The translations under genes and the position numbers were made by a program. Below, in pieces: positions 805 through 19,633 of a stretch of 64,000 bases of DNA. Origin of the DNA: Halobacterium sp. R2-5 (lineage in GTDB: Archaea > Halobacteriota > Halobacteria > Halobacteriales > Halobacteriaceae); the NCBI RefSeq assembly GCF_011734195.1, contig NZ_JAANTH010000002.1, forward strand, positions 558,001 through 622,000, read 5' to 3'. The notes below the pieces were generated by a model, which was not told the origin of the DNA, did not search any database, and saw only the letters and a program-made list of their open reading frames with translations. Numbering within the stretch: position 1 is the first letter of the stretch; the number at the start of each line of letters is the position of its first letter.

Positions 805-844
805 GTGTGGAGACTGGCCTTAGGGGTGTTGGGTATCAGAAATG

Positions 845-867
845 CCCGGGTGCTAGAGACACCCGGG
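845..867 (+). repeat. GC-rich hairpin before the HNH gene
   Basis: CCCGGGTG at 845-852 and CACCCGGG at 860-867 form a perfect 8-bp stem with a 7-base loop. It lies 37 bases before the chosen start of the HNH gene. It could be an RNA hairpin in the leader or a second protein-binding palindrome. Confidence 0.4.
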
Positions 868-903
868 GCGTCAAGCAAGAACCAAGCAATACGACAACGA
901 AGT

Positions 904-1983
904 ATGGCAGAAACTACAGCACGATCGAACGGCGAATCAAGCGGTGACCGAACAGGCAGTGGCGGGTCTGACCGCACCGGACTCTGTGAGTGTAACGAGA
1001 CCGTGGACCCAGACACGCGTCAGGAGGTATTGGAGGAGTACAAGCACCGATGCCAAGCGTGTGGGCGGCGCGGTCCGGAAGAAGGAGGGTTGGCGACGAT
1101 ACACGTCCACCATATTGACCGTCACATTGATGACATGGATGAGCACGCGATGGAGAACTTGACGTTGATGTGTCGTCCGTGTCACAGCTGGCTCCATCAA
1201 CAGGCGACGCCGGGTGAGTCGCCGGTGACGATTACGGACGCGGATCGGAACGTCCTGTTGCCGCAGGACGTTGAGGTGTTGCAATTCCTCGCATCGCACG
1301 GGCCAACGCGGACAGGGGACATCGCGTCTGGGATGACCGCTGACCTGTCTGTGTCTGCGGTCCGGGAGCGACTCTGGGTTCTCATGGGGCTGGACAATCG
1401 TGTTGAGTCGCGTGACCGGCAGATCGTCGATAAGGACGTCGAGACCGGTGAGTGGGGACTCACGGATCAGATCGAGAACTCTGCTCGCGGTCACATCCCG
1501 GATGACCAGCAGTTACTGTTGCAGCGGATGGAGGATGAGCAGGTGCGGCGCGCGCTTGACCGCGGCTGCGAACGGCGCGCGGTGATGGACGTCCTGGGAA
1601 TCTCGCGGCGCTCAACGTTCAACAAAATCAAGCGAGCTTACGCGTACGACTTCCCGCTCGACGCGTTCAGCCGCGGTGGCCGCCCGACAAGCGAGACCCG
1701 CAATCAGGGACGTGACGTGGAGCGTGATACACCAAAGGATGACGCAGGCGACGAGCAGCAGCGCCTCAACGATGTCGCTGGCGAGGATCTCGGTCGCGTG
1801 GAAACGTGGGGGAACAGCGATACGACGACTGGGCCATCAGGGTTGGCGGCGGGTAGTGGAGATGATGAGTCCGCCTCCGGTTGTCCAGAGACTGAAGCCG
1901 TGTCACCCAACCTAACTGAGGAGTTGCTTCGAGAACTTCAGTCAGCGATTGAAGCGTTGGAAGCGGCCGACGAAGCGCTGTAA
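904..1983 (+). CDS. HNH endonuclease with C-terminal helix-turn-helix segments
   Basis: This 359-residue protein has a disordered N terminus rich in Gly, Ser and Thr, then an HNH domain at about residues 45-100. The zinc ligands and catalytic residues are visible: C50/C53, H69-H70 in HVHHID, N85, C90/C93 with H94 and H98. A winged-helix segment (about 122-172) and a second helix-turn-helix (about 212-246, GCERRAVMDVLGISRRSTF) follow, then an acidic tail. The family cleaves DNA, and the HTH parts suggest site recognition, as in homing or mobile-element nucleases. I used the ATG at 904; the longer open frame upstream runs through the hairpin at 845-867. The natural target is unknown. Confidence 0.75.
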   Translation: MAETTARSNGESSGDRTGSGGSDRTGLCECNETVDPDTRQEVLEEYKHRCQACGRRGPEEGGLATIHVHHIDRHIDDMDEHAMENLTLMCRPCHSWLHQQATPGESPVTITDADRNVLLPQDVEVLQFLASHGPTRTGDIASGMTADLSVSAVRERLWVLMGLDNRVESRDRQIVDKDVETGEWGLTDQIENSARGHIPDDQQLLLQRMEDEQVRRALDRGCERRAVMDVLGISRRSTFNKIKRAYAYDFPLDAFSRGGRPTSETRNQGRDVERDTPKDDAGDEQQRLNDVAGEDLGRVETWGNSDTTTGPSGLAAGSGDDESASGCPETEAVSPNLTEELLRELQSAIEALEAADEAL

Positions 1984-2146: not shown

Positions 2147-3034
2147 TTATTCGAAGTCGTCTAGTGAGGTCTGTTCCAACTTGGTTTGGACATCGTCAAC
2201 GAATTCGTCAACTTTCCGCTGGAGTGCCTGAAGTGATTTTGAGACGACTTTCCACTCATCCGTGCTTCCGGCCTGTATCTTCTGGATGTGTTCGTCCAGT
2301 CCCTGTTGCTGGTACTCTGAGAGAATGGTTTTTGTGTGTGATCGAAGTTCGTTTTTCAGATTTGCGTCGAGATCAACCCAGAGTGGGTGAGCATCTTCAA
2401 GGAGATCGTCGACATCGAATGTGTCCTGAGCAAGTGCGACGTGGACGGTGGACTGAAGAATCGAGATTGTGAACTGGCGGTAGTCGTCCTCGTTGGTGCC
2501 GACATCGAATGGGTAGTACTCTGTAGGTAGACGGCGTGTCCCAGTGAAAATGGGGAATGTGGATTGGAGTTCGTCGAGGTTGAATTCGTAGTCTTCGATG
2601 GTTCGCACGATGTATTGGTTGGCGTCCTCGTCGAAGTGAACGACTGCGAAGTCGTTGTCCGGGAGGAACGGGTTTACGGAGAGGTCGGCGAACGACGAGT
2701 AGGCGAATTCAGCGTCGTAGTCTTCAGTTGACTCGGCGGACGAGACGACGCCCCGAGTTAACAGAAAGGTTGGGGAGTGATGAATGGCCTCGTACTTCTC
2801 GTTTTGCTCTTCATCCAACGTCTTTGACTTGCAGTCGATGACGATAGAGTGGTTGTGGGCTCGGCTGGTGAGAATCAGGTCGGGGTTGACCTTGGTTCCC
2901 TCGTGGACGAAGTCGGGATCAATGATGTCGACGGTGTAGCCAAGGTTTCGGAGGGAGTCGGGAAACGTCCGGTCCAGTTGGCACAGACCGATCCACGCGT
3001 TGATTTGGAGGGTGTGGTTAGAGACGTTCTCCAT
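2147..3034 (-). CDS. PD-(D/E)XK-like nuclease, second gene of a two-gene operon
   Basis: This 295-residue acidic protein has a restriction-endonuclease-like core near the N terminus: PDLILTS, then about a dozen residues later IVIDCKSK. This is the spacing of a PD...(D/E)XK active site. The C-terminal third is predicted largely helical and may form a coiled coil (LQALQRKVDEFVDDVQTKLEQ). The start at 3034 overlaps the stop of the upstream gene by one base (TGATG), so the two are translationally coupled. I do not recognise the family beyond the nuclease motif. Its pairing with an unknown protein inside an integrase-rich island suggests defence, which is inference. Confidence 0.6.
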   Translation of the reverse strand: MENVSNHTLQINAWIGLCQLDRTFPDSLRNLGYTVDIIDPDFVHEGTKVNPDLILTSRAHNHSIVIDCKSKTLDEEQNEKYEAIHHSPTFLLTRGVVSSAESTEDYDAEFAYSSFADLSVNPFLPDNDFAVVHFDEDANQYIVRTIEDYEFNLDELQSTFPIFTGTRRLPTEYYPFDVGTNEDDYRQFTISILQSTVHVALAQDTFDVDDLLEDAHPLWVDLDANLKNELRSHTKTILSEYQQQGLDEHIQKIQAGSTDEWKVVSKSLQALQRKVDEFVDDVQTKLEQTSLDDFE

Positions 3035-4128
3035 CACTCCTGCACCTCCATTGTCGCGTTTGAGTCGTAGTGTCGTTGGAGGTTTGAATAGATGCGGAGG
3101 GCGGTGTTCCCGCACGCTTCATTCCCAAGGTAGAGTCGGAGCCACTCAGGACAAATCTCGATGGTATACTTGTCGTTATTGTGGAGGTCGATGCCCTTCA
3201 CCTTCCAGTATTGATCGTCCAATTTTGTCTTCGCTCCCCAAAGTCGGAGCGGGTTCTTCGCCGTGATCGTGTTCTCGATGAACTCTCGGACGTTCTCAAT
3301 CTCGTTGTCCAGTTCGATGACGAGCGGCGTTCCGTCCATCCCGGTGCCGTGGTCTCGGGACTCGTAGGAGAGGCGGTGGTTCTCTTCGATACGTTGGAGG
3401 AGTGTCGAGTAGCGGTTCTTGATTTCAGCTACGGTGTCAAGGTGGAGTTGTATTGAGTCGCCGCCGCTGGTAGTGAAGCGGCCGTTGTGGGTAACTCTCT
3501 CCAAGACAAATGAACCGTTCACTTCCCGCTTGATACCTACACTAGAGAGTGAGAGGAAACTGGAGAGTTCTTCGTGGCTGTCGAGGATGTCGAATAGAGT
3601 GCCGGTACCGCGGCCACTACTCCGGACGGACAAATCACCGAAGGCTAGCCTGTCTTCAATGTAGTCCTCGGAGAATACGTCGTCGGCGTCGTAGCTGACC
3701 CCCACGTCGCGGAACTCGCCCATCTCCATGACGTCGCGCTGCTGTTCAACGGGCATCCATGTGTAGTCCAGACCATTCCGCACGCCGCTGACCATATCTG
3801 CGACGACTTTCTTTGCGTCCTCTGATTCTTCTAGTGTGTACAACGTCCAGAATCGAGAGTCCTCGTGATCAAGGAAGAACGTATAGTTAGTACCGTTGCG
3901 ACGGATTACGAGTTCTTCGAGATTGAAGTCCACCTCGCGTGTTTGGGTAATATCTACTCGTTCTCGGAGGTCTGCCGGTGAGACGTTGGACTCTATCAAG
4001 AACGTCTTTAGCATCGTTTGGCCGGGTTGAAGTTCTTGATCTTCCGACAGCTCGTCGTACGTGCCTTCCATGGTATGTTGGAAGACGTCAAAGAGATCTC
4101 GGCGGCTCTGGATGGAAGTAGTTGACAT
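3034..4128 (-). CDS. Protein of unknown function, partner of a PD-(D/E)XK-like nuclease
   Basis: This is a 364-residue protein without membrane segments or a motif I recognise. It is acidic, alternates strands and helices, and ends in a Trp- and Tyr-rich part (QYWKVKGIDLHNNDKYTIEICPEWLRLYLGN when read in pieces). It is the first gene of a coupled pair, its stop overlapping the next start by one base. A TATA-like ATAAGA lies on the minus strand about 35 bases before the ATG at 4128. It may be a sensor or a recognition subunit for the nuclease encoded by its partner; only the gene order supports this. Confidence 0.6.
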   Translation of the reverse strand: MSTTSIQSRRDLFDVFQHTMEGTYDELSEDQELQPGQTMLKTFLIESNVSPADLRERVDITQTREVDFNLEELVIRRNGTNYTFFLDHEDSRFWTLYTLEESEDAKKVVADMVSGVRNGLDYTWMPVEQQRDVMEMGEFRDVGVSYDADDVFSEDYIEDRLAFGDLSVRSSGRGTGTLFDILDSHEELSSFLSLSSVGIKREVNGSFVLERVTHNGRFTTSGGDSIQLHLDTVAEIKNRYSTLLQRIEENHRLSYESRDHGTGMDGTPLVIELDNEIENVREFIENTITAKNPLRLWGAKTKLDDQYWKVKGIDLHNNDKYTIEICPEWLRLYLGNEACGNTALRIYSNLQRHYDSNATMEVQE

Positions 4129-4474
4129 TTGCGTTTCCTTGGTCTCGTCTCTTGTTTGGCTCTTATCCCCTGGTCGTGTTAATGATTAGCAATCCATGGT
4201 GAAAGTGGAGTTGGTCTCGCTTGGCGGTTTCTTCTGTTGACCTCCGAAAGGAACGTATAAATCCGTGGTGGTGCCTGGCTACCGTTGAACCCCAACTAAG
4301 AACGGATGATCGCGGTGATCTCGCCCCTGGTACCTGAAATAACTGACAAGCGTGGGGTTGAATGCCATCTGGCTATGGACCGTCGTCTATTGCGGCCACA
4401 GGAGTTCTTGACGAGCACAAGTACAGTAGGTGTATCGGACCGAGTCGTACCTAAGTCACGAATAGTACCCGTGG
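4129..4474. other. Intergenic region with promoter-like elements
   Basis: The 346 bases hold the promoter of the minus-strand pair, and on the plus strand a good TATA box (CGTATAAATCC, about 4254-4262). A plus-strand open frame of 59 codons runs from 4306 to 4485 and ends inside the neighbouring gene on the other strand. It is composed of ordinary residues but matches nothing I know, so I do not call it a gene. Nothing else was seen. Confidence 0.4.
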
Positions 4475-5698
4475 TCAGAGGGTGACTTTGGAGATGCGTT
4501 GTCGGTGATAGCTTAATTTCTCGGGGTTGAGGTCGTGTTCCTCATCTACGGTCAGAGTGTTACCGTCAACCGTCTCGTCGTACTCGTGTCGGATTTCGTG
4601 AGTTGCAGGGTCGATTTCTATCACTCCGTAGTCGAAGTCTGCATGGTGGTTTGGACACAGAATGAGAATGTTCCCCGGTGTGTCTGGTCCGGTATGTGGA
4701 TCCCCTAGCGGCTGGATGTGATGACCTTCTGCGTAGGGTTGATTTGACCCCCGATACCGGACATCACCGCAAACCTGGCACTCGAACTCATATGCTTTCT
4801 TTAGGTCTTTGACGAGTGTCGTGTTACGGACTTTCCGACTCACCGTGGTTTCTACAGAATTCGGGGTGGCAGCGTCGGTGACGACCTCTTCCGGGTCTAG
4901 ATTCGAGGCATCAGCTGCGTCTAACACAGCCTGGGAATCGACAGCCCGTTCATCTCCATCCGCCAATATCGAGTCGAATATCGGCATCTCATCAATCAAC
5001 AAGTCGTCTGCGGGATGGGAACATGTCCGTTTGATGTGCCGTCCAATCGTCGCCTCAGAACGCTTCATCTTTGAAGCAACCTTTTCAAGAGTCATTTCTG
5101 GGTCCCGTGCCCAGATCTCCCGGGCTTTCTGGCAATCCTCTCTAGTTAGATCCCCACCTCGTTCATCAATCGTCCGAGCATTCGTCGTTATGTCGTGCGA
5201 ACAGTTCCCATTGAGGTGTCGAACGACGGCCGCGTAGCTCCACCGGACGTCCCGCGCAACATCTATCATAGTTCGCTGTTCGTCTTCGAAGAACCGCTCT
5301 CGGAGCACTGCACAGTCGGTTCTTGAAATCGGTTCCCGGTCACGGATTTCGCCCCGTTCCACGGTTGGAGCGTCGATGTCGTGTGAACACTCACCGGTTA
5401 GGTGACGAGCAATCGGCTGCCATCGGGTCTCGAACCGTTGCTCTAGTGTTTCAGTTTCGACGCCGTCGGCGAACAGGTTCCGGAGCTCTTGGCATTGCTC
5501 AGCGTCTAATTGATGGCTGACCGGTGGGTCGATTGGTTCGATAGCGACGTCGTGACCGCAGTCCCCGTAGAGGTGATGCCGGATCGCCTGTTTCTCAATA
5601 TCTAACTGCTGCGCCAGTGGATTGAACCCGGTTCGCTGGGAGTATTCACGCCGAATGGTCTCGCAACGCTCCGCTGTCACTACAGATTCTTCTGTCAT
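4475..5698 (-). CDS. HNH endonuclease with four tandem Cys/His helix-turn-helix modules
   Basis: This 407-residue protein begins with four repeats of about 60 residues. Each has a Cys near its start (C12, C69, C129, C189), a central helical part, and a closing H-x4-C-x-H signature: H42-C47-H49, H99-C104-H106, H161-C166-H168, H221-C226-H228. The closing motif reads RHLTGECSHDI or close variants. The spacing suggests DNA-binding helices, each tied by a Cys/His metal site. After a linker (about 235-295), an HNH domain follows with C307/C310, H326-H327, N343, C348 and H351-H352. It lies 6 bases downstream of the TFB-like gene, so the two are an operon. The modular array implies recognition of a long DNA site. 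The zinc binding is inferred from residue spacing. Confidence 0.75.
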   Translation of the reverse strand: MTEESVVTAERCETIRREYSQRTGFNPLAQQLDIEKQAIRHHLYGDCGHDVAIEPIDPPVSHQLDAEQCQELRNLFADGVETETLEQRFETRWQPIARHLTGECSHDIDAPTVERGEIRDREPISRTDCAVLRERFFEDEQRTMIDVARDVRWSYAAVVRHLNGNCSHDITTNARTIDERGGDLTREDCQKAREIWARDPEMTLEKVASKMKRSEATIGRHIKRTCSHPADDLLIDEMPIFDSILADGDERAVDSQAVLDAADASNLDPEEVVTDAATPNSVETTVSRKVRNTTLVKDLKKAYEFECQVCGDVRYRGSNQPYAEGHHIQPLGDPHTGPDTPGNILILCPNHHADFDYGVIEIDPATHEIRHEYDETVDGNTLTVDEEHDLNPEKLSYHRQRISKVTL

Positions 5699-5704
5699 AC
5701 TTGC

Positions 5705-6586
5705 TCACCTCAAAGTCCGCCGATATTCGTTGATTGTACGATTAGTCACGTGCACTACGTCTGTCAGATCGTCAACTGACAAGTCAGGACGACCATCATC
5801 CACTCGCTGGTTCGCTTCTAATACGGCAGCGCATACCCCGGCCTCCGTACTACCGTTTCCGGCGACTAATTCTGTATGAGCCTCCAGAACCGCTTCTGTC
5901 TCCGTCACGACTCCTGGAGGAAGGCTACACTCGGTTTTAAGGACGGAAATCCCGTGTTCAGTGTCTTCAAACCGGTGTTTTTCGATAGTGTATTCAGTCT
6001 CCTGATATACTTGTTTGAGAATCTTTGTGTACTCGTTCCGAATCGTCACCTCGGTCGGACCAACCACGTTTGATACTTCACTCTGTGTAACGTCGTAGGA
6101 GCACTCGCTGAGATATTGACCTGCGAAGATTGTACTTGCAGCAATCGTCGTCGGAGCGAGATTCTCTAACCGGCCGGTTAGAGAGTCCACAATATCAAGA
6201 AGAATATCAATCTCATCACTAACACCGAGTTCTTCAGCTGTCGTTTTGAGCGTCGTTTCAGGGCGTGGTGGTGGTAATGGAACGCCAGCTTCGCTCAGGA
6301 TCCGTGATGACACCGTTTGTAAGCGACTATCTTTGATTCGAGCTTCGGCCGCGACCTCTCTGAATGTTGCCCCACATTCTTCCTGGTGTAATCGCACCGT
6401 TGCGTACACACAGAGGGCACTAAGATCGTCGAGTCGAGCAAATTCAATGTCTTGCTCAAGGATTTGATGATAGATGCGGAGTCCTTGCTTGATAACGGAT
6501 TCAGAGAGATCAAGGCTATCACCCATACGTTCTATTTCGCTCGCAACGTAGCGAATTCCCCCTGCTCGGAAGTCGCGCTGACTCAT
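5705..6586 (-). CDS. TFB (TFIIB)-like protein lacking the N-terminal zinc ribbon
   Basis: This 293-residue protein has cyclin-fold repeats of the archaeal initiation factor TFB. The first is at about residues 5-100 (RYVASEIERMGDSLDLSES, ALCVYATVRLH). The second is at about 110-200 (PTTIAASTIFAGQYL, then SEVSNVVGPTEVTIRNEYTK). A further repeat-like segment closes the protein (CAAVLEANQRV, LTDVVHVTNRTINEY). Normal TFB is about 310-330 residues and starts with a CxxC zinc ribbon and B-finger that recruit RNA polymerase; neither is present. It may act as a competitor or dedicated regulator, or bind its own operon promoter. It is first in an operon with the HNH gene. The loss of the ribbon is visible; the function is inferred. 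Confidence 0.75.
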   Translation of the reverse strand: MSQRDFRAGGIRYVASEIERMGDSLDLSESVIKQGLRIYHQILEQDIEFARLDDLSALCVYATVRLHQEECGATFREVAAEARIKDSRLQTVSSRILSEAGVPLPPPRPETTLKTTAEELGVSDEIDILLDIVDSLTGRLENLAPTTIAASTIFAGQYLSECSYDVTQSEVSNVVGPTEVTIRNEYTKILKQVYQETEYTIEKHRFEDTEHGISVLKTECSLPPGVVTETEAVLEAHTELVAGNGSTEAGVCAAVLEANQRVDDGRPDLSVDDLTDVVHVTNRTINEYRRTLR

Positions 6587-6888
6587 TGACCCATCAGTTT
6601 GAACAGACGTAGTAAGTAACTTGTCGTGGAGTGAAGTTGTTCTGCTGTAACTGGGATCGATGAACGAAGAGCACAGGGAGAAATCATTGAGCGTCCGGGT
6701 TTCACCTGATGTTGTGTGGGATAGCTTCGGTAACTGTCTAGTCGATCCTTGCTCTTTAGCTAAATCTTATAGAGTGTCATAGAACGGTTGACACACCTGA
6801 TTCTAACGGTAAATACAGACAAGCTACCTACAGGGTTATTTAGAATATCTACTTCAACGATATTATTTCGGATTAGTACGGAAAGGAG
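6587..6888. other. AT-rich intergenic region
   Basis: About 300 AT-rich bases lie between the TFB-like gene and the next minus-strand gene. They should hold the promoter of the TFB-like gene near 6587-6625. I see no open frame, strong repeat or RNA gene. Confidence 0.4.
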
Positions 6889-7311: not shown

Positions 7312-7929
7312 TCAAACCTTCAGTAGATGGTCGTAGACCCGTTCAGTCGTCTGAATACTACGGTGACGAAGTCGGTTGCGGACATCGTACAGCGTGTTTC
7401 CGTCTTCTTCGTTCATCATTCGATAAGCAACACCGTGCCGTAGTGCGTGAGGTGTGACGTCGCTTGGGTCACCTCTACTCCCGTCAAGTTTGTAGGGTCG
7501 AATTGCTGCCTCCTCAGCGATCTTGTGAAGCATATTCCGCACGCCTTGTTCGCTAATTCGTTCGGAGGATCGAGACGGGAAGAGGGCTGGCGTGTCTTTC
7601 CATCGGTTGGTGAGGTACGCCGAGAGCAGACGTGTCGTGTCGCCAGTGAGTTCAAGGGTCACCGGTGGCGGAGAATTCTCATTGGGGTAGTCCTTCTGCA
7701 GGTCCGTGGGAAGGTAGAGTTCCGAGTTGTTGTTCCGCAGGAGTTCTATGTCGATCTGGACGAGCTCGCCTACCCGGAGCCCGGTATCGTACATCGTCGT
7801 GACGATTGCTTCGTTTCGCTGTTGGAGGTATTCTGCACCAGTCGCGTAACATGCCGACCGAAGTGATTCGACTTGATTGGGAGTCACCCACACTTTCGCC
7901 CGAACTTGGGAATTTGCGTACTCACCCAT
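7312..7929 (-). CDS. Tyrosine recombinase, catalytic domain only
   Basis: This 205-residue protein is the catalytic half of a XerC/D-type integrase. The Arg of box I is in TGLRVGEL, the HxLRH box in PHALRHGVAYRMM, and the tyrosine follows LRHRSIQTTERVYDHLL. The usual N-terminal core-binding domain is missing, so the protein is short: either a truncated integrase or one of the small archaeal recombinases. A TATA box (TTTATAAA, 7945-7952) lies just upstream on the minus strand, and a near-perfect 38-bp palindrome lies beyond it at 7972-8009. The start is uncertain; an ATG at 7938 is also possible. Confidence 0.7.
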   Translation of the reverse strand: MGEYANSQVRAKVWVTPNQVESLRSACYATGAEYLQQRNEAIVTTMYDTGLRVGELVQIDIELLRNNNSELYLPTDLQKDYPNENSPPPVTLELTGDTTRLLSAYLTNRWKDTPALFPSRSSERISEQGVRNMLHKIAEEAAIRPYKLDGSRGDPSDVTPHALRHGVAYRMMNEEDGNTLYDVRNRLRHRSIQTTERVYDHLLKV

Positions 7930-7971
7930 TTTGACCAATCCTCTTTATAAACAGTACTGTGCCACAATCAC

Positions 7972-17978: not shown

Positions 17979-18006
17979 TTTAGAGTCTATGTACGCTGAG
18001 CGGCTA
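17979..18006 (+). repeat. 28-base direct repeat, copy 2, at the AbiEi start
   Basis: This second copy runs up to the A of the AbiEi start codon. A TATA-like CTTTATCC at about 17963 places the transcript start at or near this repeat, so a protein bound here would block transcription. AbiEi antitoxins are known to repress their own promoter. Confidence 0.6.
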
Positions 18007-18839
18007 TGGACTCAACAAACGACGAGGAGACTCAACGAAAGAGCCTGTCGACACGTGAGTCGCAAGCACTGTCACGACTTGCAAGCGAGAACCGACAGGT
18101 CATCACCATTAGTGACATCGCGGATGTCCTCAGCATCTCTCGGAAGTCGGCCAAGGACATGGCGTATGCCCTCAAGGAGAAAGGCTGGCTGGAGCGGATC
18201 GCGCACGGAAAATATCTCATCCTGCCGCTCGCTGCGGGCGAGAACGCTGTCTACACCGAACACGAGTTCGTCATCGCGTCAGCACTGGTAGAGCCGATGT
18301 ACATCGGGTACTGGAGCGCATTGAATCACCACGGGCTGACAGAGCAGGTGCCTCGGACGGTGTACATCGTGACGACAGAGCGCGCGCAGGAGCGTGAGAT
18401 TCACGGGGTCACGTATCGACCCGTGACCGTCACGGAGCAGAAGTTCTTCGGCTATCAACCGACGGCGGTCGGATCGAACCAGGTGAACATATCGAGCATC
18501 GAGAAAACCCTGGTCGATTGCGCCGACCATCCCGAGTTCTGTGGGGGTATCAGCGAGCTTGCGAAGGCACTGCAGAACGCGGTCGACACGCGGTGTTCGT
18601 GGGAGCGCGTCGTTGAGTACCTGCGGCGAGTCGGGAACGGTGCCGCAACGAAACGACTCGTCTACCTCGCCGACCAGTTGAACATCGACTTGCCAAAGTA
18701 CGAGAGCCTCGTCGAGAACTTCACGACTGGGTACCCGCTGCTCGATCCGACGAGAGAAGCGAAGGGCACCCGCGACAGTAAGTACCAGCTCCGCCTGAAC
18801 GTCACCCCCGAATCGTTCCTCCCGGAGGACTTCTCATGA
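18006..18839 (+). CDS. abiEi: Type IV toxin-antitoxin system antitoxin, AbiEi family
   Basis: This is a 277-residue protein. A winged helix lies at about residues 18-75 (VITISDIADVLSISRKSAKD, LKEKGWLERIAHGKYLILPL). The AbiEi effector domain follows, with YIGYWSALNHHGLTEQVPRT and the SSIEKTLVDCADHPEFCGG signature. The family binds and represses its own promoter and counters the AbiEii toxin without direct binding. Its stop overlaps the toxin start by four bases (ATGA). The two 28-base repeats upstream are candidate operator sites. Start choice: the ATG at 18006 follows a TATA box by about 40 bases. Confidence 0.85.
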   Translation: MDSTNDEETQRKSLSTRESQALSRLASENRQVITISDIADVLSISRKSAKDMAYALKEKGWLERIAHGKYLILPLAAGENAVYTEHEFVIASALVEPMYIGYWSALNHHGLTEQVPRTVYIVTTERAQEREIHGVTYRPVTVTEQKFFGYQPTAVGSNQVNISSIEKTLVDCADHPEFCGGISELAKALQNAVDTRCSWERVVEYLRRVGNGAATKRLVYLADQLNIDLPKYESLVENFTTGYPLLDPTREAKGTRDSKYQLRLNVTPESFLPEDFS

Positions 18840-19633
18840 TCTCCGAAGCGCAACTCCGACAGCAGGCCAGAGAATTAGATGTTCGCCTCAGCTACGCGGA
18901 GAAGAACTACGTCAACTCGTGGATTCTCTGGGCGATCTACACGAGCTCCTATGGTGACAACCTGCTGTTCAAGGGCGGCACTGCGCTCAGCAAGTTGTAC
19001 TTCCCGGAGACGTGGCGGTATTCGGAAGACCTCGATTTCGGTGTCGAGGGGGCGTACCACGGGACTGAAGCGGAGTTGCAGGACGCATTAGCAGACGCGA
19101 CGAGAGCCTCCGGGATTGACTTCGGGGTGACCAAGCACCGGGAACTGCAGAAAGAAGCGTATCCGACGCACTACGTCGATATCGACATCCAGTACACCGC
19201 TGTGCTCAGTCACAAGAACACAACGAGTCTCGACGTGATGATCGACGAATACGTGGCGTTTGACTCCGTGACTCATCACCACCGTTACGAGGACGTCCCA
19301 GAATTCGAGTTGACTGCGTACAGCTTAGAGGAGATCTTCGCCGAGAAGTTACGGGCGCTCTATCAGCGGTCACAGGCCCGGGATTACTACGACCTCTTTC
19401 GGATGATTACGGAGGCCAATGTTGATGACTCAGTCATTCTTCCGGCGTTTTCGCGGAAGTGTGAACACGATGGCTTAGACATTAATCTGGAAGCTGGCCT
19501 TCCCCGGGAGCAGCGGGACGAGATCCGCGACGGGTGGCGGAACACGCTGCCTGATCTGGTAGCTGACCTTCCCGAGTTCGACCGCGTCTACGACGTACTC
19601 GACGAATACGTTGAGTCGCTAACGAAGACGTGA
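18836..19633 (+). CDS. abiEii: Type IV toxin, AbiEii nucleotidyltransferase family
   Basis: This 265-residue protein carries the nucleotidyltransferase signature GGTALSKLYFPETWRYSEDLDFGV: the GG...S motif and the DxD-type pair. YSLEEIFAEKLRALYQRSQARDYYDLF follows, matching the conserved K and RDYYD motifs of AbiEii. The family transfers nucleotides to an RNA target and stops growth, giving abortive infection or element stabilisation. All expected motifs are intact, so it should be active. It overlaps its antitoxin gene by four bases. Confidence 0.85.
   Translation: MISEAQLRQQARELDVRLSYAEKNYVNSWILWAIYTSSYGDNLLFKGGTALSKLYFPETWRYSEDLDFGVEGAYHGTEAELQDALADATRASGIDFGVTKHRELQKEAYPTHYVDIDIQYTAVLSHKNTTSLDVMIDEYVAFDSVTHHHRYEDVPEFELTAYSLEEIFAEKLRALYQRSQARDYYDLFRMITEANVDDSVILPAFSRKCEHDGLDINLEAGLPREQRDEIRDGWRNTLPDLVADLPEFDRVYDVLDEYVESLTKT

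Follow-up and report, generated by a model that had tools for sequence, protein, structure and literature searches.

A ribbonless TFB relative paired with a modular HNH nuclease: a putative mobile restriction-type unit of haloarchaea

What would a relative of the general transcription factor TFB do immediately upstream of a nuclease gene? This question is raised by a gene pair in the window analysed here, a stretch of 64,000 nucleotides (G000:C2:558001-622000) from a 3-Mb haloarchaeal genome, to which all coordinates refer unless a locus is named. To us it has the appearance of a two-gene restriction (anti-invader) unit, hitherto undescribed, that travels on mobile islands. As the original prediction, made from this DNA alone, had claimed, the HNH gene begins six bases (5699-5704) after the TFB-like gene, and both reading frames were found to be open:

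5705-6586, minus strand: gene 1, TFB-like protein of 293 aa without zinc ribbon (ORF; TFIIB matches in Pfam and NCBIfam)
4475-5698, minus strand: gene 2, modular HNH nuclease of 407 aa (ORF; HNH_2 and TagI matches, see below)
6613-6626, minus strand: weak candidate BRE/TATA-like promoter, CGACAAGTTACTTA, 26 nt before the gene 1 start codon
6017-6055, minus strand: BRE-recognition helix of repeat 2 in gene 1 (residues 178-190, TEVTIRNEYTKIL), as in working TFBs
Approximately residues 3-100, 109-196 and 209-292 of gene 1: three five-helix cyclin-type repeats, from the AlphaFold2 helix pattern

The TFB-like protein

The product of gene 1 contains TFIIB repeats (Pfam, E 1e-10; NCBIfam TFB, E 4e-17) and is related to Pyrococcus TFB in a profile comparison (E 2e-30). 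An AlphaFold2 model built from a seven-sequence alignment (mean pLDDT 80, pTM 0.46) comprised 15 helices in three sets of five, and its residues 2-204 superposed on the TFB core 1d3u_B with Z 15.7 and rmsd 6.2 (194 aligned residues, 24% identical). Because the helix pattern is repeated and the last 90 residues match the second repeat (hhalign, E 1e-5), the modelled protein most likely has a third repeat of the cyclin/HTH kind. That no match over this part was listed by the structural aligner does not argue for a new fold. The prediction that cyclin folds are kept was thus borne out, and only their number has to be revised, from the usual two to three.

The repeats have not been conserved to the same degree. 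Repeat 1 retains 14 of the 47 residues that are invariant in canonical TFBs and repeat 2 retains 18 of 33, including the BRE-reading V-T-I-R-N-x-Y helix, which contacts the BRE in TFIIB/TFB structures. Within this helix V180, I182, R183 and Y186 are invariant in the seven TFB-like proteins of the pair. Since repeat 1 has lost most of the TFB-invariant residues, TBP binding is uncertain. The zinc ribbon, through which TFB docks RNA polymerase (PMC7865254), is absent from all seven members and present in canonical haloarchaeal TFBs. A ribbon missed upstream was ruled out, as no C-x2-C...C-x2-C pattern precedes the start codon, the frame runs into stops and the orthologous frames begin at the same place; the protein is indeed a ribbonless TFB relative, as had been proposed. 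In summary, like archaeal TFB and TFIIB, gene 1 encodes the BRE helix and a TFB core fold made of two cyclin repeats; unlike them, it lacks the ribbon, has a third repeat and a strongly diverged repeat 1, and is paired with a nuclease gene.

A randomly decayed TFB was also ruled out: dN/dS values were 0.07-0.20 for the TFB-like and HNH genes alike, so that both are under purifying selection, and the TFB-like proteins form one clade with a support of 100/100. A separate ribbonless TFB-like N-terminus (TFIIB, E 1.9e-7) was observed elsewhere in the same genome, in a 755-aa protein (L148, G000:C3:66000-75000, 2512-4779, minus strand) whose other domains are those of a class III nucleotide cyclase (E 9e-9) and a methyltransferase (E 1e-14). 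Here the TFB cyclin fold would have been reused once more, perhaps in a more unusual way than in the TFB/HNH pair.

The modular nuclease

Gene 2 was found to encode four small N-terminal modules followed by a nuclease domain:

5549-5674, minus strand: zinc-HTH module 1 (residues 9-50; C12, H42, C47, H49; three helices in the model)
5378-5503, minus strand: zinc-HTH module 2 (residues 66-107; C69, H99, C104, H106; recognition helix 64% identical across clades)
5192-5323, minus strand: zinc-HTH module 3 (residues 126-169; C129, H161, C166, H168; recognition helix 47%)
5012-5143, minus strand: zinc-HTH module 4 (residues 186-229; C189, H221, C226, H228; recognition helix 45%)
4490-4861, minus strand: TagI-type HNH domain (residues 280-403; H327, N343, H352, D356; zinc cysteines C307, C310, C348)

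The nuclease domain matched HNH_2 (E 2.5e-9), and its best solved relative was the SRA-HNH enzyme TagI (6ghs, E 1.9e-25), followed by EcoKMcrA (E 1e-5) and, weakly, by ScoMcrA. The activity of TagI requires the first His, the Asn, the second His and the Asp (PMC6212794), and these align with H327, N343, H352 and D356, which are kept in all six proteins having the domain. By homology, the nuclease domain is placed with the TagI-type modification-dependent restriction enzymes. The structural model of the nuclease had low confidence in its C-terminal half, which was too poor to use, and nothing significant was matched when this model was submitted to a fold search (best E 0.2). Haloarchaeal cousins of the HNH domain (45-54% identical) bear other N-terminal regions, one of them SRA-like by Pfam and by similarity to ScoMcrA, others EVE/PUA-like by eye only.

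The four C-x29..31-H-x4-C-x-H modules of the original prediction were recovered exactly, with the pattern C-x29-H-x4-C-x-H twice and C-x31-H-x4-C-x-H twice at a spacing of 57-60 aa. All 16 Cys/His ligands are invariant in the seven nuclease proteins, the most distant pairs of which are 33-41% identical, and therefore the pattern is not due to chance. Every module was modelled as three helices and matched HTH families, and the module profile matched the tandem-HTH protein 2lvs (E 6e-6). The modules, judged by their conserved ligands, probably bind zinc, and the tandem zinc-HTH array probably acts as a DNA reader that brings the nuclease to DNA. No SRA, EVE/PUA, SBD or NEco reader was detected in residues 1-270 with Pfam, NCBIfam, PHROGs, PADLOC and a PDB profile. 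Between clades, identity reaches 45-64% in the predicted recognition helices of modules 2-4, compared with 18-27% in helix 2 and 21-31% in the inter-module linkers. This conservation suggests that the modules read a fixed target and not a diversifying one, with the qualification that helix 3 also houses core and ligand positions.

The nuclease thus resembles known enzymes in its layout. As in TagI, ScoA3IV, VcaM4I and EcoKMcrA (type IV enzymes of the SRA-HNH/EVE-HNH kind), the HNH catalytic domain keeps the H/N/H/D residues, and as in TagI-type enzymes an N-terminal reader and a C-terminal nuclease are joined in a single chain with no NTPase. Unlike these enzymes, its reader consists of four zinc-HTH modules instead of an SRA, EVE or SBD domain, and it has an obligate TFB-like partner gene. 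A fusion of an HTH-class reader to HNH is also found in HhiV4I and its relatives, winged-helix-HNH enzymes of haloarchaea and haloviruses that read 6mA (PMC11037411). According to that description, a single winged helix does the reading in those enzymes, in place of four zinc-clamped modules, and the account, in the parts that deal with them, describes no TFB-like partner; by description, then, they are set apart. Tandem HTH repeats are shared as well, by the profile comparison, with proteins of the Cbp1 type, the CRISPR repeat binding proteins to which 2lvs belongs; those lack a nuclease domain.

Single modules of this type were also observed in other proteins. A 209-aa protein (L113, G021:C16, 2546-3175, minus strand) combines one C/H-framed HTH module with a different HNH domain and may represent a minimal form related to the four-module nuclease. 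In addition, stand-alone 57-aa zinc-HTH-like proteins with one module are encoded in haloarchaeal genomes (L104, 3627-3800; L106, 4054-4227; L112, 3235-3408), and tailed haloviruses have weak matches to the module (E ~0.7-0.9), for example gene 86 of HSTV-2 (L116, 2983-3162).

Linkage and genomic neighbourhoods

The linkage of the two genes was strict. Of 376 Halobacteria genomes, 8 were matched by the TFB-like profile at E < 1e-38 (all at E <= 1e-123), with no other protein in this range, and the profile of the four-module region found the same eight among 391 genomes, its weaker matches elsewhere being single modules or fragments. These genomes represent eight genera, and in every one the order TFB-like to HNH and the adjacency are maintained, so that the co-occurrence for which the original prediction had proposed a search held throughout. 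The probability of this coincidence by random draw from 376 genomes is ~1e-16, for genomes that are partly related. The two frames overlap in five intact loci and are separated by a 6 bp gap in two, and the nuclease tree contains the same groups as the TFB-like tree, in which the proteins of the two clades are 24-25% identical. No third constant gene was found among the window neighbours compared across loci, only the TFB-like and HNH genes being common to all, and the pair has no constant neighbour that encodes a methyltransferase or another means of self-protection. Pair members were absent from a 345-genome sample of the phylum outside Halobacteria. Pattern scans, which reach close relatives only, found no relatives in IMG/VR or phage records, and on plasmids found only canonical TFBs or HNH domains; a virus origin is disfavoured by the former result, within the same reach.

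These data bear on whether the TFB-like protein is simply an ordinary divergent regulator of many host genes, linked to the nuclease by common transfer only. Haloarchaea have many TFB paralogues (17 repeat hits in the genome of the window), as this explanation would expect; however, in 376 genomes the TFB-like protein was never found without its nuclease partner, and it forms a single clade that is ribbonless throughout, which makes such a role very improbable.

The neighbours differ at every pair locus, and several are of defence type. Those with defined positions are:

Window 805-1983, plus strand: HNH2, a second HNH protein (392 aa)
Window 7312-7938, minus strand: short integrase
Window 18006-19633, plus strand: AbiEi/AbiEii type IV toxin-antitoxin pair, in the same low-GC region as the pair
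L072 7436-9082, minus strand: CARF and CARF-PIN-like, neighbouring genes directly upstream of the G046 pair

In the window, the pair lies in a low-GC region (~53%, first 28,000 bases; the rest is ~70% GC) that also contains integrase-like genes and the AbiEi/AbiEii pair. The G046 copy is directly preceded by the CARF and CARF-PIN genes and has a KAP NTPase on its downstream side, the G373 copy is near an AspBHI-like modification-dependent HNH restriction gene, and the G033 copy is beside a CRISPR array of more than 70 repeats. The G345 copy is beside a cysteine-synthase-like gene, in a setting that is not obviously a defence island. These neighbourhoods suit a mobile accessory defence gene pair, but do not prove defence. 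HNH2 was ruled out as a third component because it is not constant: relatives accompany the pair in G052 and G033, G030 has a fragment, and the G050, G046, G373 and G345 loci have none. Separately, an ADP-ribosylglycohydrolase-like gene was seen near the pair in G052 (L074 15531-16439; PF03747, E 2e-76) and, by eye, in G373 (L102 11631-12539).

Another reading is that the nuclease is a homing or mobile-element enzyme through which the cassette spreads, the TFB-like protein being a passenger or a regulator. Homing enzymes often contain HNH domains and tandem HTH modules, a long four-module recognition would suit rare cutting, and integrase genes lie near two copies (window and G033), the short integrase of the window being 92% identical to that of G033 (L073 11026-11649) with a different flanking order. 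However, the copies stand among different genes with no intron, intein, common insertion site or other shared gene to be seen, and the HNH domain is nearest to restriction enzymes; because the sites are unrelated and nothing else is shared, homing is disfavoured and we regard it as highly unlikely. Of the proposal that the pair is a defence or mobile-element system, the restriction/defence part is the one that we retain; this role is supported, not proven, on the basis of the TagI-type nuclease domain and several defence-type neighbours.

The state of the copies is informative for another alternative. Six are complete, the G345 copy has lost the HNH domain and kept the modules and an intact TFB-like gene, and the G030 copy is a remnant decayed in both genes, its TFB-like gene being interrupted by stops and its HNH gene broken. 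In a toxin-antitoxin-like pair, the nuclease would be a self-damaging toxin and the TFB-like protein an antitoxin or operon repressor that stabilises the island. The overlap of the first gene with the second, the mobile island with integrases and the joint decay in G030 are compatible with this. Nevertheless, antitoxins are usually small and labile, we know of none from the TFB family, and in G345 the TFB-like gene is intact after loss of the nuclease domain, when an antitoxin would be unneeded. We consider this explanation improbable.

A control protein or a targeting subunit

The reading that we prefer, to which we give a probability of about 0.45, is that the pair is a mobile two-gene restriction-type unit of haloarchaea with a TFB-derived control protein. 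The TagI-type HNH domain would cut DNA, probably as a dimer like TagI, and the four tandem zinc-clamped HTH modules would bring it to DNA in place of an SRA, EVE or sulfur-binding reader. The TFB derivative, which has kept the cyclin/HTH core and the BRE helix, lost the polymerase-docking ribbon and gained a third repeat, would occupy its own BRE/TATA promoter without recruiting the polymerase and so keep nuclease levels down until the enzyme is required, much as C proteins do for many restriction genes. What we infer is the cutting of foreign DNA, the target of that cutting (a sequence or a modified base), and that the TFB-like protein binds promoter DNA and represses.

Several lines of evidence favour this unit: the same eight genomes, the fixed order with gap or overlap, the joint decay in G030, the matching trees and the lack of a third gene; purifying selection on both genes; the TagI and EcoKMcrA relatives of the nuclease and its cousins with SRA-like or other N-domains; the TFB core fold with BRE helix kept, repeat 1 diverged and ribbon absent; and the defence-type neighbours, namely CARF/CARF-PIN/KAP (G046), AspBHI-like (G373), CRISPR array (G033) and AbiE (window). 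In addition, the gene order is like that of C-protein systems such as C.PvuII, where a transcription-factor gene lies upstream of and overlaps the endonuclease gene (PMC2997769), and seven loci of the pair have this arrangement, with the TFB-like gene 6 bp from or overlapping the endonuclease gene. C proteins differ in being small HTH activators of another family that come with a methyltransferase; the pair has a TFB derivative and no constant methyltransferase.

This last point also argues against a control-protein unit, because without a constant methyltransferase or other self-protection gene the host would be cut by a plain sequence-specific enzyme, except where the target is modified DNA or does not occur in the host. 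If the modules were to read a modified base, as they may and as the winged-helix-HNH enzymes do with 6mA, the absence of the methyltransferase would be explained. Furthermore, by eye, no conserved operator (C-box) was found upstream of the pair beyond an ordinary BRE/TATA promoter-like element, with CGAAAGGTAAATA-type elements (also read by eye) 20-30 nt ahead of the TFB-like start in G033, G052, G373 and G345. The low confidence of the nuclease model in its C-terminal half and the G345 neighbourhood, which is not defence-like, also count against it. Finally, the regulator has never been swapped despite the low identity between clades, which points to a partnership closer than that of a mere regulator.

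Such a partnership is the core of a more speculative explanation, in which the TFB-like protein and the HNH nuclease form one effector that cuts actively transcribed foreign DNA. Within it, the TFB-like protein might read TBP-bound BRE/TATA or displace TFB, the third repeat might hold the nuclease and the four modules might read flanking DNA. A general transcription factor would then have been turned into a target-finding or licensing subunit, with invader promoters recognised by TBP/BRE occupancy and cut, that is, a transcription-linked restriction. The 1:1 linkage across deep divergence, the extra cyclin repeat, which is dispensable for promoter binding, the retained BRE helix and the conserved recognition helices of modules 2-4, which would be expected if their target is constant, for instance an element of the core promoter, all fit this mechanism. 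On the other hand, host promoters have the same elements, so that self-cutting must be prevented by a safeguard not seen here, and repeat 1, stripped of most TFB-invariant residues, makes TBP binding doubtful. We hold promoter targeting to be possible but unlikely; the simpler control-protein role fits equally well or better than TFB-directed cleavage.

We file the pair as one that would work like a controlled restriction system and that belongs neither with TFBs, as it has no ribbon, nor with known modification-dependent enzymes, as it has no known reader. Targeted paper searches returned no described TFB/HNH or TFIIB/defence-island combination, as the original prediction had supposed, and PADLOC-DB contained no match to the TFB-like protein, and only parts of the HNH protein were weakly matched. 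The partnership of a TFB with a nuclease has no precedent in the papers and defence libraries searched. The pair would represent the capture of a general transcription initiation factor as the obligate partner of a restriction-type nuclease, together with a new reader type, tandem zinc-HTH modules, on a TagI-type HNH chassis. A partner that controls expression would be a TFB-based counterpart of the C proteins; one that targets the nuclease would represent a new principle of self/non-self recognition in archaea.
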